Shown: one piece after another, positions 52,087-59,473 of the stretch
Position numbering within the stretch: position 1 is the first letter of the stretch
Layout of the letters: the number at the start of each line of letters is the position of its first letter
From: Melioribacteraceae bacterium
GTDB taxonomy: Bacteria > Bacteroidota > Ignavibacteria > Ignavibacteriales > Melioribacteraceae
Assembly: GCA_021647785.1 (NCBI GenBank)
Contig: JAKIUC010000026.1
Coordinates: 1-59,473, forward strand
Reading direction: 5' to 3'
Length of the DNA stretch: 59,473 nt
Program-made: the position numbers and the translations under genes
Notes under the pieces: generated by a model
What the model saw: only the letters and a program-made list of their open reading frames with translations
The model's database searches: none
What the model was told of the DNA's origin: nothing

Positions 52087-55000
52087 TTAATTATATGGAT
52101 TTTTAATTTTAGGAGGGATTCCAAAACGCTGTGTGTATAGCTTGATGAAATAATCTGTTCTTTCAAAACCAATTTCATAACTAATTTCTGCGAGTGAATT
52201 GAACGAATCATTATCAATTAATTCCATCGCAATTTTTAGTTTTATTTCTCGCATATATTTAGCTGGTGAAAGACCGGTTATTTTTTTTATAGTACGATGT
52301 ATTTGTCTTTCGCTTGTCAGCATCTGATTAGCAAATTCATTTACATTAAATATTGAAGATTTAACATTATCTCGGCATACTTTTTCTGCTTTTTCAAGCC
52401 ATAATAAATCATGCTCAATAAATTCTTGTTTATCCAAATTATCTGGCTCAACTGAACCCAAATTAGTAACAGCAACATTTCGTTGTTCATAATAAAACAA
52501 GAGGTTTTTTACTCTTGCAAGTAATTCTTCAGGTAAAAACGGTTTGTAGATATAGTCATCAACACCAATGCGTAATGCTTTTATTTTGCTTTCAGGGGTT
52601 GCTTTAGCTGTAAGCAGAACCATCGGGAGTTTCTTAAATTCATCATCAGCCTTTACTTTTTCAAGAAGTGTAAATCCATCCATTCGGGGCATCATAATAT
52701 CTGAAAGAATAAAATCAATATTGTTAGATTTATCATTCAATAATTCCAATGCTTCAACGCCATCACCAGCTGTTATTATAGAATAACTTTTTGAAAGAAC
52801 TTCGGTTATAAATTCACGAAGATCCAAGTTATCTTCAACAATTAAAACAGTATGTAATTGTGTTAATGAGATATCTTCTTCTGTTTCAGTAGTGGGTGGC
52901 TCATCTATAGTTGAAGATAGTGACTCCACCCTATTTGCAATCTCGTTCTCTATTATTGCATCTTTCAATTCTAAACTTGGTTTTTTTAGAGGAAGCTCTA
53001 ATATGAATTTTATTCCCTTTCCTAATTTACTTTCAACCGAAAGATTACCCCCTAAAGCAGTAGAAAGTTCTTTAGCAAAAGCAAGTCCAATTCCAGAACC
53101 TCCAATATTAGATTCGTTCATTGTAGATGATTGGAAAAATCTATCAAATATTTTTGGTAAATCTTCTGTAGGAATTCCTTTACCATTATCTTCAATAACA
53201 AAAATAATTTCATCTTTCTTTTTCAAAGATACTGTAAGAGAAATTTCACCACCGGTTTGTGTAAACTTAAAAGCATTTGAAAGAAGATTAAAAACAATTT
53301 TATCAAACTTATCATCATCTAACATAAAATTTATTTCGCCATCAAATTTTCTAACAACTCTCCAAATTATATCTTTTGATTCAGCTAATGATTTAAATGT
53401 AGATTCAGTTCTATCTATTAACTTAGTAAGCTCAATTGGTTTTTCATTAATAATAAGTTTTCCTGCTTCAAGACTCGATAAATCTAATATTTGTTCAATT
53501 AATTCTAAAAGTCGATTCCCGTTTCTCGCTGCACGAGTAATTATTTTTTTTGTTTTTTGATGAAGATTACCATAATGACCTTTTAACAATGCGTCTAACG
53601 GGCCAAGTATTAAAGTAAGTGGGGTTCTAAGTTCATGTGAAATATTTGCGAATAATCTTGTTTTTGCAACATCCAATTCTTTTAATTCAATAGTTTGTTG
53701 CATTATTATTTTTTTATCACTTTCAATTTTTTTTGTTCGTTTTTTTACTTCTGTTTCCAACCTTTCCATTTCTTTTTTGCTCTGTCTAATTCTGTATTGA
53801 TAAAAGGAAATAATCAAAATGCCAATACTAAAAACTAACAATACGATAAACCAAAGTTTAACATAAAATGGAGTGAGAACTTCGATATTAATATTTAACT
53901 GATTTGTTGACCATTTACCAGCATGGTTTTGACCTTTAATCCTTAATTTATAATCCCCAGAATTTAGATTACTTATTCGAATCGAATTTTCATTTATGTA
54001 ATGCCATTTATTATCAAACCCCTCCAATAAATATGCATACTTATTTTTACCATCTTCATAGTTTAATAGTGAAAATTGGAGAGTAAAAAATTTATCGTCC
54101 GAATGTAATATAATTTTATTAGTTAAAACTAATTCTTTTGTTTTATCAACCAATTTATCTTCTTCATCTTCAAACTGGTTAAATGAAATAATTCTAAGTG
54201 GAATATTATATTCCTTTTCTTCCTCCAAAAAATCTTTAGGATCAAACGAGTTTACTCCATCAACCGTACCAAAATAAAGCCTTCCATTAGTATTCTTGTA
54301 ATATGAAATGCTGCTAAATTCGTTGCTAGATAAACCATCTTTTATCGAATATGTATCAATTTCTCCAGAGGTTTTATTAAGCGAATTTAAACCATAAGAA
54401 CTACTAATCCAGAGTTTGTTATAATCATCTTCTAAAACCGAGAATAATGTATTTGCTGATAATCCATCAGCAGTTCTATATACTTTATAAGATTTATTAT
54501 TCCTATTCCATTCTATTAAACCATCTCCATTTGTAGCTATCCAGAAAACCCCATCTGAATCTTCATGAATATTATACATATAATCAGATGGAATATATTG
54601 TGAGTTATTGCCACCTTTCCAATATCTAATTGATTTTCCAGATTTATCAATTTGAAATAATCCTATGCTTGTAACTGCCCAAAGTTTTCCATCATGAGAA
54701 TTGAAAATTTGGTACACTATAATATTCTTTAGTTTTTCATTTAAAGGAAATTTTATAAACTTATTTTTGGTAAAATCATAATAAAACAACCCCTTATTAA
54801 TACCTACCCACATTTTACCAGATTTACTTTTGTAAACAGACCAGATATTTTGATTTGGATCACTACCTTTTGAGTAATAACCTTTGTACGATTCCGTTTG
54901 TTTTTCATTAAAATCAAATTTATATAGGTCAATAACCTTATCATTTTCATTAAAAACAAATAAACCATTACTACCTGCATATAGTTTATTTTCAATCTTG

Positions 55001-56298
55001 GTTAATGCTAATCCGCTCCAATCATTTAAAATTTTAATAGGTTTATTTTTGTCAATCATTGAAATTTTATAGAGTGAGGTAGAACTGTTTGAATAAAGGT
55101 TTTCATTTTTATCAACATAAATCCCCTTTGGTTTGCTATCGAATTCGTTTAGTGTGCGCGGTAAATCTTTTAATCTTAAGTAAGAAGAAAATCTATTCTC
55201 TTTTATAATTATTTTGTAAATACCCTGAGTTCTTGTTGAGACCCAAATATTATCAAGATTATCAAATAAGGCATATGACCTGGAAATACCTGGATAATTC
55301 TCAATATTATTTGGAGGAATTATAACTTCCCAATTAAGATTAGGCTTTATCAATACAACACCGATAGTTTTGCTTATTCCAAGAATAATTCCTGTTCTTT
55401 TGTCTTGAAAAAATCTAGTTTCAGGTCGTGTAAGAGGTGTAGTTGTTTTTAACAGCTTTTGGTCAATTTTCGTAATTGTACCAGAAGTTGTTGCTTTATA
55501 AATTATTTGATTAATACGTTTTTTATTACTTGGAATACTTTTATAAGATTTTCCATCACCAAAATCAATTTCAGGAATTACGGTAAACAATAAATTATCA
55601 TTACTATCCACTCCAATTAATTCAGGTTTATTGAGATTGTTACCCTTATAAATATCTTTTACCACTCCATCATAATTTACATAGCGGATTGTGATTTCGT
55701 CATAATTAAACCAGAACCCATTCCTGCCAAACCGAAGGTATCTGCTTGTAACAAATTTTCCAACGTTTTCTGTGATGTATATAGATTTAAATTCATTGTT
55801 TTCATCTTTTTTATATAAAGTACCATTTTGAGTAAGCAGATAAAAGTGGTTGTTAGCTGAAAAAAAATGAATTTTGGAATCCTTAACATTTTTTATTGTA
55901 GGATAAACTTCTTCTATATTTTTTACTTCTAATGTTTTTACATCGAGAATATCAATTTTTTGTGTAGAATAAGGGGACTTCAACCAGATTTTACTATTGT
56001 TATCTTCAGCTATATGAAAAACACGTTTAATTTCTAGTCCATTTTTTTCACTATTAATAGCTTTAAATTCCTTTCCATCAAAATGTGTTAATCCATATTT
56101 TGTAGGGAACCATAAAAATCCGCGGCTATCTTGAATTCCTTCTTCCACATTAAGCGAGGGGAGACCATCTTCCATTCTGTAATTTTTAATTTCAACAATT
56201 AAGGAAGATTCCTTAAAATGAAGGGAATCAGATTCTTTTGTGAGAATAGAATTGAAAGGAATGAGAATTAAAATAATACCATATTTTAGAAATTTCAT
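52087..56298 (-). CDS. Hybrid two-component sensor/regulator (HTCS), 1403 aa
   Basis: A signal peptide and Reg_prop beta-propeller repeats (for example VEEGIQDSRGFLWFPTKYGLTHFDG) fill about residues 20-700. A Y_Y_Y domain follows (KYAYLLEGFDNKWHYINENSIRISNL ... YKLRIKG). A membrane helix is at about 815-835. The histidine kinase core has NISHELRTP with phospho-His888, G1 DNGKGIP and G2 GGSGIGLAFAKE. The receiver (VLIVEDNLDLREF ... DIMMPRMDG) has phospho-Asp1200. A C-terminal AraC double HTH (about 1315-1400) ends the chain. Such one-protein systems usually sense glycans or peptides in the periplasm; ligand and targets are unknown here. Confidence 0.93.
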   Translation of the reverse strand: MKFLKYGIILILIPFNSILTKESDSLHFKESSLIVEIKNYRMEDGLPSLNVEEGIQDSRGFLWFPTKYGLTHFDGKEFKAINSEKNGLEIKRVFHIAEDNNSKIWLKSPYSTQKIDILDVKTLEVKNIEEVYPTIKNVKDSKIHFFSANNHFYLLTQNGTLYKKDENNEFKSIYITENVGKFVTSRYLRFGRNGFWFNYDEITIRYVNYDGVVKDIYKGNNLNKPELIGVDSNDNLLFTVIPEIDFGDGKSYKSIPSNKKRINQIIYKATTSGTITKIDQKLLKTTTPLTRPETRFFQDKRTGIILGISKTIGVVLIKPNLNWEVIIPPNNIENYPGISRSYALFDNLDNIWVSTRTQGIYKIIIKENRFSSYLRLKDLPRTLNEFDSKPKGIYVDKNENLYSNSSTSLYKISMIDKNKPIKILNDWSGLALTKIENKLYAGSNGLFVFNENDKVIDLYKFDFNEKQTESYKGYYSKGSDPNQNIWSVYKSKSGKMWVGINKGLFYYDFTKNKFIKFPLNEKLKNIIVYQIFNSHDGKLWAVTSIGLFQIDKSGKSIRYWKGGNNSQYIPSDYMYNIHEDSDGVFWIATNGDGLIEWNRNNKSYKVYRTADGLSANTLFSVLEDDYNKLWISSSYGLNSLNKTSGEIDTYSIKDGLSSNEFSSISYYKNTNGRLYFGTVDGVNSFDPKDFLEEEKEYNIPLRIISFNQFEDEEDKLVDKTKELVLTNKIILHSDDKFFTLQFSLLNYEDGKNKYAYLLEGFDNKWHYINENSIRISNLNSGDYKLRIKGQNHAGKWSTNQLNINIEVLTPFYVKLWFIVLLVFSIGILIISFYQYRIRQSKKEMERLETEVKKRTKKIESDKKIIMQQTIELKELDVAKTRLFANISHELRTPLTLILGPLDALLKGHYGNLHQKTKKIITRAARNGNRLLELIEQILDLSSLEAGKLIINEKPIELTKLIDRTESTFKSLAESKDIIWRVVRKFDGEINFMLDDDKFDKIVFNLLSNAFKFTQTGGEISLTVSLKKKDEIIFVIEDNGKGIPTEDLPKIFDRFFQSSTMNESNIGGSGIGLAFAKELSTALGGNLSVESKLGKGIKFILELPLKKPSLELKDAIIENEIANRVESLSSTIDEPPTTETEEDISLTQLHTVLIVEDNLDLREFITEVLSKSYSIITAGDGVEALELLNDKSNNIDFILSDIMMPRMDGFTLLEKVKADDEFKKLPMVLLTAKATPESKIKALRIGVDDYIYKPFLPEELLARVKNLLFYYEQRNVAVTNLGSVEPDNLDKQEFIEHDLLWLEKAEKVCRDNVKSSIFNVNEFANQMLTSERQIHRTIKKITGLSPAKYMREIKLKIAMELIDNDSFNSLAEISYEIGFERTDYFIKLYTQRFGIPPKIKNPYN

Positions 56299-56340
56299 TT
56301 AGCTGCAAACTTGATTTTCGGTAAAACTAAATATACAGAT

Positions 56341-56693
56341 TTAATTCTGGATTTGCGAAAATGGCAGCGATTCAACCCAAGTGAATGCAGAGGCTAATCC
56401 ACTTACTCCGGCAGGCAATGTTGTCAACTTAAGAAAGCACACACCCCTAAATCCCCTCTCTAGAGGGGACTTTTTACTGCTCCTTCGGAGCAGTCATGTG
56501 TTTTTCCCCTCTTGAGAGGGGAAGATGCTTTAGCATCAGGGGTGTGTTGCTACCCCGAAATATGTTCATTCCTTAAGTTGACAGCATTGACTCCAGCAGC
56601 AAGGGCTAATAGTGGTGCAATGCAGCAGAGAGAAGCTGTAATTGCTGCTAATATACTTGTTCCTAAAAGAGTTTTGTCCGATTTATTAGTCAT
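56341..56693 (-). pseudogene. merT: merT-type mercuric ion transporter fragment, split by MITE-4
   Basis: On the minus strand ATG 56693 gives MTNKSDKTLLGTSILAAITASLCCIAPLLALAAG in short blocks, the N-terminal membrane part of MerT with its vicinal cysteines. After the element at 56416-56589 the frame resumes with AGVSGLASAFTWVESLPF and stops at 56341. The second half is missing, so the gene cannot make a working transporter. It lies directly downstream of the merR/thioredoxin fusion. Confidence 0.7.
56416..56589. mobile_element. MITE-4 (174 bp) inserted in the merT fragment
   Basis: CAATGTTGTCAACTTAAG and, in reverse complement, CAATGCTGTCAACTTAAG are the ends. ACTCCGGCAGG (56405-56415) and ACTCCAGCAGC (56590-56600) flank it, 9 of 11 bases matching, consistent with an old 10-12-bp duplication as in the IS4 group. 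The interior carries hairpins of CCCCTCTC/GAGAGGGG type and CTGCTCC/GGAGCAG. Confidence 0.7.
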
Positions 56694-56728
56694 TTCTAAT
56701 TTTACTTTTCTTAATTTGGATTAGTTGG

Positions 56729-57238
56729 TTAGTTTGAAGTATTGGTAGTAATCATCTTAAGTATATCTTCTTCAGTTGGCAATCCATCTTTGTAATATCT
56801 GCACGCTAAGGATGGAGTTTTATTCTCTTCAACTCCTTCAACATCTTTTCCATTTATCAAAATTGTTGGCGAACCTCTAAATTTATATTTCTCTGCATCC
56901 GCTTGTGTCTCAACCAATATCTCATCAAAGTCAATCTGTAATTCTGATTCAGCAACAAACTTCCTCACCATATTTAGTACTTCCTCCGAATTTGGACAGC
57001 CTGTAAAATATTGGACTTCTATTTTTGTGTTATTCATTTTAATCTCCTTTAATGTAAATCTAAATTGCTGAGACTTCTTCACAAACTTTAATCTATCCAA
57101 GTCCATTTCAGAATAAACTCTGTAACCAGATTCCATTCTTTTCGGTATTGGCATCAATTTAATATTCTCATAATAGCGAATAGTTTCTATGTTAATACCA
57201 ACTTCTTTTGCGAGTTTCCCGACTGTTAAATTCTCCAT
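56729..57238 (-). CDS. Truncated MerR HTH domain fused in frame to a thioredoxin-like protein
   Basis: Residues 1-67 are a MerR-type winged helix (LTVGKLAKEVGINIETIRYYENIKLMPIPKR...GYRVYSEMDLDRLKFVKKSQQFRFTLKEI). From residue 68 the protein becomes NNTKIEVQYFTGCPNSEEVLNMV ... KYKFRGSPTILINGKDVEG ... SLACRYYKDGLPTEED, a thioredoxin-like domain linked to mercury or arsenic genes. The MerR dimerisation helix and metal-binding Cys are missing. ATG 57037 has GGAG 6 bp upstream, so the thioredoxin part may also be made alone. The reading frame is open throughout. Confidence 0.75.
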   Translation of the reverse strand: MENLTVGKLAKEVGINIETIRYYENIKLMPIPKRMESGYRVYSEMDLDRLKFVKKSQQFRFTLKEIKMNNTKIEVQYFTGCPNSEEVLNMVRKFVAESELQIDFDEILVETQADAEKYKFRGSPTILINGKDVEGVEENKTPSLACRYYKDGLPTEEDILKMITTNTSN

Positions 57239-57263
57239 TTTTAATTGTTCCTGTTTTACTATT

Positions 57264-59028
57264 ACCTAAATTGAGCGATACTCAAAATCAAAACACTAAT
57301 TTATGTATTTCTCAATTTCCCGATATGGATTTTCGATTATTATTTGATAGATGTAACAATATTCATCAAATTTCAAAATATAATTTAATTTTAGATAAGA
57401 ATCAGTTTCAAAGCAGAGATAATATTTAATTTTGGATATATCTATCCGCCGATGGATAAATTATTATTTTTGCTATATGTCAGTCTTTTTTTTGTTTAGT
57501 TGTTATCTAAAGATTGGTGGAGGAGTTTGGCATAGCCTCCACAACTCAATTATTTTTAATCTCTCGTTAATTTCTGATGTAACTTTAAGAATTATCTCTC
57601 CACTGTGATAGACTATTTTCACTGCAAAATCTATTAGTTTTCTACGGAATGTGTTAGGATAACTTTCAGTGGATAAAACATTATATGTAACATCTCTCTT
57701 ATATGACTCAAATAAAAAATGAGATATTGCCAGCAAAAAATAATATGCTCTGTTCATTTCCATATTCTTAAATGGTAATTGTTCTTTAGTAGCAAGTTCT
57801 TTTATTGAACGATGTATCAATTCATCTTTACCACGTTTATGTGCAAGAGTAATAATTGAGTCTGCTGTTAATAAATCTTCTTTACCGGCATTTATTAGTT
57901 GTTCTGTAATTGCAGAGTCTTGACCAATATTTGTGTAGAGTATTGTGTTAGGTCTTGCAAAATCTAAAACCAATTGTCCGTTTTTCTCTGTGGTTAACCT
58001 TGTAAATATTGTGCGTCTTATCTTTTTCCAACTTTTTAGTTTATTGCCAAACTCTAAGTATTGCCATATACCATTGCCTTTGAACTCTTTATAATTATTT
58101 GCAGATGTTTTTTCTATATAATCTCTAATATCTTTATACATCTTTCCAGTAATGATATATCCTATTTTTAAGTTCTCTTCAAAATATCTGAATGCTTTAT
58201 CGTCTAAGAATCCGCTATCACAAACTACTATTATGGGAACTTCTCGATTGTAGTTTTTTCTTATGAGTTTTGTAATATCGTTTACTGTCTCTGTAAAATC
58301 ATCTTCGTGGTTGGAATGTTTGCTGCCACTACGAAATAATATATCTACAAGATATGCTCCCCAACTAATGTGTAGCGGCTGATACCCTTTTTTCTTTTTG
58401 TAAGTTGGCTCTACTCCTTCTCGCTTTTTTGCATCGTCATTATTCATTACCATTGTATCTACACCCAATATTATTACTTTTGGCTTTTCTATACGAAGTC
58501 TCCAAATAAATAATTTATGTAGAAATTTACGATATATTTTATCTCCAATTTTATTAACCATCAGTTTCCTAAAAAACCTTTTTACTTGGTGGGAGGATGC
58601 CATTTCGTTTCCTTTGTTTTCCAATAATGAGGTGTAGGCTCTGTCCTTTTTTTTATCGTTAAAACTTTCCATTCTCATATAAGTACCATCTATAAAGTAA
58701 GCAAGTATTTGTTTTATGAATTGATAGAGACCTAAGCCTTTGGCTCCGATAGTTATCTGTTTTCCTAAGATGTTTTCTGATAGAAAATAGAAACCTATCT
58801 GTTCTACATAACGAAGATAGAAAGCAAGCCCTCCTCGTCCTGATATCTTATCTTCGGTAGTGCCTATTTTATTAATTTTAAATTCGGATTTTTTAACTTT
58901 TTTTAGCATCTTTTGTTCACCTTTTGGGTTGTTTGTTTTTGTGTTAGTAACACCACAAAGGTACTGTTTTTACAGTACTTTAAACAGCCCTAAAAGGTTT
59001 TTTAAACGTGTAATCGCTCAAGTTAGGT
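57264..59028 (-). mobile_element. IS1380-like insertion sequence, 1765 bp
   Basis: ACCTAAATTGAGCGAT (57264-57279) and its near-exact reverse complement ATCGCTCAAGTTAGGT (59013-59028) are the ends, 15 of 16 bases matching. They enclose one intact transposase gene, with 119 bp before and 223 bp after the gene. No direct duplication is clear: the 4-bp flanks TATT and GATA differ, so the flanks may have been rearranged. Confidence 0.75.
57503..58909 (-). CDS. IS1380-like transposase
   Basis: The 468-residue protein reads GVDTMVMNNDDAKK..., YKKKKGYQPLHISWG, VVCDSGFLDDKAFRYFEENLKIGYIITGKMY and later LAHKRGKDELIHRSIKELA, ending with long basic helices. This D...DSGF...E layout is the DDE catalytic core of IS1380-family enzymes. 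The frame is intact and the gene fills the element, so the copy could be active. The family call rests on motif order, not on a search. Confidence 0.82.
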   Translation of the reverse strand: MLKKVKKSEFKINKIGTTEDKISGRGGLAFYLRYVEQIGFYFLSENILGKQITIGAKGLGLYQFIKQILAYFIDGTYMRMESFNDKKKDRAYTSLLENKGNEMASSHQVKRFFRKLMVNKIGDKIYRKFLHKLFIWRLRIEKPKVIILGVDTMVMNNDDAKKREGVEPTYKKKKGYQPLHISWGAYLVDILFRSGSKHSNHEDDFTETVNDITKLIRKNYNREVPIIVVCDSGFLDDKAFRYFEENLKIGYIITGKMYKDIRDYIEKTSANNYKEFKGNGIWQYLEFGNKLKSWKKIRRTIFTRLTTEKNGQLVLDFARPNTILYTNIGQDSAITEQLINAGKEDLLTADSIITLAHKRGKDELIHRSIKELATKEQLPFKNMEMNRAYYFLLAISHFLFESYKRDVTYNVLSTESYPNTFRRKLIDFAVKIVYHSGEIILKVTSEINERLKIIELWRLCQTPPPIFR

Positions 59029-59340
59029 GATACTAATGGAAATGGAGTTTACGATGATGGAATTGATACTCCACTTGATTCTGCAATTAATAGAAAGGGT
59101 GAATTATTAGGACTGGATGAATATCCTGGTGCAAAAAACAATAAACTTACTTCAAGCACTAACTATATCAGTGGTCATCCAACACATGGTGATCCAGATA
59201 ACGAAGAGCAGTTAAGAAGTTATATGTTGGGCTTTAATCAACAAGGAAAATTGATAGACCCCTGTAATTGGGGATTAGGAGATGTATTTAACCCAACTTG
59301 CCACTTTGGGATGTTAAGACAAGCAAAAACAACATGTTAA
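59029..59340 (+). pseudogene. 3' fragment of a secreted-protein gene cut by the IS element
   Basis: The frame is open from the IS end to the TAA at 59338-59340. It encodes DTNGNGVYDDGIDTPLDSA, then LLGLDEYPGAKNNKL and STNYISGHPTHGDPDNEEQLRSYMLGFNQ. The DxNGNGxYDDG loop is typical of Ca-binding regions in secreted Ignavibacteria proteins. The 5' part is not present on the other side of the IS, which instead has merR sequence, so a deletion or rearrangement took place. Confidence 0.6.
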
Positions 59341-59344
59341 AAAA

Positions 59345-59473
59345 TCAGTGGTACACTACATATTTTTTAACTGCTCTTTGTGTGTTATTGCATTTAGCCG
59401 CATCATAAATGTTCTTAACCTCGTCCATTGGTTTAGCTGGTTTTCTAAGATGGATATTTTTTTTATCAGTAGG
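59345..59473 (-). CDS. Partial unknown ORF running off the right edge
   Basis: On the minus strand an open frame enters from the edge and ends at TGA 59345-59347 after KNIHLRKPAKPMDEVKNIYDAA and AVKKYVVYH. The basic, short C terminus could be that of a transposase or phage protein, but this is a guess. It converges with the fragment at 59029-59340. Confidence 0.35.
   Translation of the reverse strand, partial: PTDKKNIHLRKPAKPMDEVKNIYDAAKCNNTQRAVKKYVVYH

Follow-up and report, generated by a model that had tools for sequence, protein, structure and literature searches.

A MerR winged helix joined in frame to a DF-family thioredoxin-like protein, a probable deletion relic of a decayed mercury operon in a Melioribacteraceae genome

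The stretch of DNA analysed here (59,473 nucleotides of contig JAKIUC010000026.1 from a Melioribacteraceae bacterium, hereafter the window) carries on its minus strand an open frame that runs for 169 codons from its ATG (178 when counted from stop to stop) and encodes a MerR-type winged helix continued without a break by a thioredoxin-like domain. This is the fusion described in the first-pass annotation, which placed it at exactly these coordinates, although without giving the strand (Table 1). The Pfam model MerR_1 matches residues 5-68 of the translation and Thioredoxin_3 residues 72-131 (3.2e-7), both passing their cut-offs, and the NCBIfam model NF049942, named 'DF family (seleno)protein', matches residues 73-157 with 81.7 bits (cut-off 70); the match scores of both halves are far above chance level. 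The DF part possesses the whole domain and the sites conserved in its family, and differs from other members in that its N-terminus is joined to a merR frame. It is the cysteine form of the protein, since the 169 codons contain no in-frame TGA and the conserved position is occupied by Cys, which disposes of a selenoprotein reading for this copy; the two cysteines of the fusion (81 and 146) both lie within the DF part. Among solved structures the best match to the DF part reached only E 0.086, and no paper on such a MerR-DF fusion was found in the portions of the literature that our search returned.

Table 1. Features of the fusion locus and its surroundings, in window positions
Feature	Position	Strand	Basis or remark
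Fusion open frame	56729..57238	-	169 codons from ATG
merR remnant, codons 1-67, winged helix to FTLKEIK	57038..57238	-	Pfam MerR_1 6e-16; alignment of relatives
DF-family thioredoxin-like gene, 102 codons	56729..57037	-	102-residue product from internal ATG: NF049942 83.0 bits, curated cut-off 70
AAGGAGATTAAAATG, junction, coinciding with Shine-Dalgarno sequence and start codon of DF	57035..57049	-	identity with C20 copy begins here
Leader remainder, 15 bases with AGGAA, between insertion sequence end and merR start	57239..57253	-	
Insertion sequence, transposase 57503-58909 (-)	57254..59036	.	Pfam DDE_Tnp_1_4; homologue ends
merT remnant, 5' piece	56580..56681	-	tblastn with G032 merTP, 8.6e-12, 601-base stretch
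Palindromic dispersed repeat splitting merT	56415..56548	.	matched by 32 stretches across the genome, counting itself
merT remnant, second piece, AGVSGLASAFTWVESL	56365..56412	-	merTP likeness stops here

The two halves meet on the start signals of the second gene. The internal ATG lies at 57037-57035, the sequence AAAGGAGATT at 57050-57041 (minus strand) and AAGGAG 6 bases upstream of the ATG, with the junction residues K-E-I-K falling on the Shine-Dalgarno sequence of the DF gene. Among the 21 relatives whose merR has an FTLKEI-like motif, none uses AAG GAG at the two K-E codons (AAGGAG one codon later and in another register in L033 is left out of this count, and L011, which has no such motif, stands outside the 21). 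Moreover, a second DF gene of the same genome, on contig C20, has the same 15 bases, AAGGAGATTAAAATG, with no open merR frame running through them. For these two reasons AAGGAG is most likely of DF origin, and K-E-I-K probably represents the Shine-Dalgarno sequence of DF itself, translated in the merR frame. The earlier proposal that the nucleotides encoding FTLKEI serve the ATG at 57037 can be retained as far as the placement of the Shine-Dalgarno sequence is concerned, but is less likely to hold in attributing it to merR codons. Initiation at 57238 gives the chimera and initiation at 57037 an ordinary DF protein, and we infer that the DF protein is probably made from its own ATG. Over 12 bases, the merR codons of the relatives share 5 to 11 with AAGGAGATTAAA (10 in the case of G032, a genome of the same family), which would make a deletion between short repeats feasible in most of them.

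The first half shares its winged helix with MerR regulators of the mercury type (TIGR02051; structures 4ua1 and 5crl), but the fusion contains nothing past MerR residue 67. The Pfam model MerR-DNA-bind is covered in the fusion over positions 1-21 of 65, below cut-off, versus 1-65 in the G032 relative, whose MerR aligns with 4ua1 over residues 5-130 and has three cysteines opposite cysteines of that structure. Cysteines at 80, 115 and 123-125 are found in 21 of 22 relatives (L011, entered as a miss in this and in the operator count, has them at 80, 123 and 135), and none of these is present in the fusion, which confirms the loss of the dimerisation helix and metal-binding cysteines that had been read from the translation. 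With TIGR02051 the winged helix aligns to profile positions 1-64 at 75.9 bits (3e-21), far short of the cut-off of 150.85; the three intact relatives scanned also stay slightly below the cut-off, at 139.9-144.5 bits, so that this threshold alone tells little and the relatives are here labelled mercury-type and not certified as MerR.

Although recognized as a winged helix by MerR_1, the merR part carries the changes L59F and G60R at two sites that are invariant in the other 21 aligned merR sequences (L011 left out, identical proteins from several loci counted once). No other sequence shows more than one change at such sites, and four others show one each. At the level of 90% conservation the fusion has 5 deviations, L017 having 4 and L037 3, and the signal is therefore modest. 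On the other side, its dN to G032 merR (0.110) lies below the 0.157-0.222 found in the six pairs of four intact relatives, and also below the dN of the DF part to G032 (0.159), which indicates that the merR part was maintained until recently; against most relatives dS of the merR part is either saturated (26.7) or undefined (-1), and dN/dS is therefore not given.

In 19 of the 22 relatives the merR leader contains the operator TTGACTCCGTAnnATACTAC (2 mismatches or fewer), 55-61 bases upstream of the start codon (it is missing from the leaders of L017, L019 and L011). In the window there is no match with up to 3 mismatches, the best site in the leader having 8, and at the same limit none was found in the locus of the second DF gene (L002). 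A promoter scan of 56300-57520 returned 4 sites, versus 4.3 expected by chance. The end of an insertion sequence lies 15 bases upstream of the merR start codon. Its homologues in three other genomes (G034, G004 and G043) end at window positions 57254, 59036 and 59035, and imperfect inverted ends at 57256-57279 and 59013-59036 are consistent with these limits. Since no target duplication is visible by eye, the sequences flanking the element may not have been former neighbours. At its right end there is a gene fragment (NGNGVYDDGIDTPLDSAINRKGELLGLDEYPG..., 59037-59341), and a repeat at 59288-59473, which forms the end of the window, also terminates contigs C28, C89 and C50 and occurs inside C23 (98-99% identical).

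Downstream of the fusion, merT is split by a palindromic repeat and lacks its 3' part. The 5' piece is 70.6% identical to G032 merTP over 34 residues and scores 18.8 bits with Pfam MerT, under the cut-off of 32.9; this place is the sole match to the model in the genome, and weak matches were obtained at the same threshold in 4 of 14 control genomes as well, so the assignment rests on the likeness to G032 merTP. The three longest other stretches of the splitting repeat are 76-77% identical to it, and its inverted ends, with 35-base arms, give it a MITE-type appearance. Immediately downstream of the merT remnant, a protein of 1403 residues (52087-56298, minus strand) has the appearance of a hybrid one-component sensor, whose kinase, receiver domain and AraC-type end were assigned by eye.

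In relatives the two genes are separate. G032 has merR (132 aa), DF and merTP consecutively on one strand, with the DF start 11 bases past the merR stop; in G008 merR adjoins DF, and a merTP-like gene separates the two in G007 and G044 (Pfam was run on merTP of G032 only, and the genes of G007 and G044 are called merTP-like). The window keeps the G032 order of truncated merR, DF and merT, but is devoid of the operator, the 3' part of merR and most of merTP. DF-family genes lie within merR/merTP clusters at L013, L012, L014 and L016, in four genomes of the family.

The DF gene itself is intact. Sites that 90% of the other DF sequences conserve are all unchanged in the window copy, as they are in 14 others of 36. 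The second copy (L002 on contig C20, ATG at 1794, minus strand) is 85% identical to it (301 of 354 aligned columns), the blastn alignment starting with AAGGAGATTAAAATG; with dN 0.046 and dS 0.515 between the two over 90 codons, DF has been maintained. The C20 copy is flanked by a divergent methyltransferase-like gene (Pfam match below cut-off) and a gene with a heavy-metal-binding domain, as in the G032 cluster.

With the fusion as query, both halves were found in one open frame at a single place, the window. The sets searched, which overlap, comprised the genus (5 genomes, E<=1e-3), the family (79, E<=1e-12) and, at E<=1e-25, the order (164), a class sample (391) and a phylum sample (395); fusions that are weaker or very remote would fall below these thresholds, and no second species with the same architecture was found in the order or the two samples. 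NF049942 (E<=1e-8) matches 39 places in the order; in the phylum sample it matches 18. Frames other than that of the window (178 codons) measure 82-118 aa in the former and 84-128 aa in the latter, and at none of these other places does a merR frame lead into the N-terminus of DF. A scan of viral contigs yielded no relative and a scan of genome contigs one distant merR (L011). Among the matches listed in a search of plasmid proteins, at least one place reached at least 80% query coverage (query 4-142, 27.6% identity); it is annotated as a helix-turn-helix protein. A conserved redox regulator was rejected on the ground that the fusion was found in one genome only among those searched. The first-pass annotation had entertained a new redox-linked regulator and had named a fusion confined to one assembly, or separate genes in all relatives, as findings that would refute it. 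The fusion is confined to this genome in the sets searched, relatives have a full-length mercury-type merR and a separate DF gene, and the operator, the C-terminal part of MerR and merT are lost or broken, all of which tells against such a regulator.

We consider it very probable that the fusion is a recent in-frame deletion relic within a decayed mercury operon in which the DF gene has stayed intact. According to the sequence of events that we infer, an ancestral cluster of the mercury type, merR-DF-merTP as in G032, would have decayed in this genome. An insertion sequence would have come to lie directly upstream of merR, with loss of the mer operator, and a deletion would have taken the merR codons past about residue 67 together with a short spacer, placing the FTLKEIK stretch of merR directly against the Shine-Dalgarno region of DF. 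The deletion was probably aided by the likeness of the K-E-I-K codons to AAGGAGATTAAA, and the frame would have remained open by chance. The palindromic repeat would have split merT and the remaining merTP would have been lost. The surviving function is probably that of the thioredoxin-like DF protein, translated from the ATG at 57037, and the MerR part, deprived of dimerisation helix, metal-binding cysteines and neighbouring operator, would be unable to act as MerR. The other suggestion of the first-pass annotation, that a deletion product preserves expression of the second protein, is the one borne out by the evidence, the expression itself being presumed. Several observations weigh against a relic, namely that the merR part is still open, that its dN is low, that its deviations at the 90% level barely outnumber those of L017, and that AGGAA has been kept ahead of the merR start.

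A doubtful variant of the relic explanation is that the fusion predates the C20/C60 duplication and was later lost from C20, AAGGAG having then come from merR codons. On C20 a TAG stop stands immediately upstream of AAGGAGATTAAAATG, and farther upstream there is a stretch resembling residues 22-54 of G032 MerR with a score of 60 (53 against the merR of the window), versus a maximum of 41 in 1000 random sequences of like composition; by these scores, C20 also carries a merR remnant, and the segment 1468-1930 of L002 (minus strand) can be described as a further DF gene preceded by a decayed piece of merR. As a merR remnant thus precedes the same 15 bases in both copies, the deletion could predate the duplication. 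However, the merR stretch on C20 breaks off 8-9 codons before the junction and is followed by the TAG, and AAG GAG at those codons was seen in none of the 21 relatives. Of 603 possible single changes in the merR part 38 create a stop, and, by rough arithmetic, about 3 stops would be expected if the deletion were older than the duplication, so that in that case the open frame would be somewhat unexpected under neutrality.

It is very unlikely that the chimera is a working, redox-linked regulator, in which the winged helix, possibly dimerised through DF, would bind MerR-type operators, the redox or metal state of DF would control binding, and the internal start would additionally yield free DF protein. 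The frame that is open through two domains above their family cut-offs, the low dN of the merR part and a possible age greater than the C20/C60 split would fit such a protein, but it is restricted to one genome in the sets searched, the window has no operator with up to 3 mismatches, L59F and G60R affect the merR part, and an insertion sequence and a broken merT lie alongside. We give very little credence to the related idea of nested products, with free DF made beside a chimera that would repress, or act as a decoy at, MerR-type operators at other loci and whose DNA binding would follow the redox or metal state of DF. An assembly or binning error that linked a merR fragment to the DF gene is just as improbable, for although the genome is in 99 contigs, the junction lies 2.4 kb from a contig end and the two DF loci might have been mixed by the assembler, the order merR, DF, merT matches G032, 85% identity is low for such a mix-up, and C20 has no intact merR that could have supplied the 5' part.

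The deletion relic that we favour carries a caution for annotation, in that a relic can underlie an open frame that links two convincing domains. Where a Shine-Dalgarno sequence resembles codons of the preceding gene, as with K-E-I-K, a deletion may end there and fuse the frames while the start signal of the second gene survives. As for the family, DF genes are possibly an unrecognised part of the mer operons of these relatives, and their company, which consists of merR, merTP and heavy-metal-binding genes in several genomes, suggests a testable role in mercury or thiol/metal handling.
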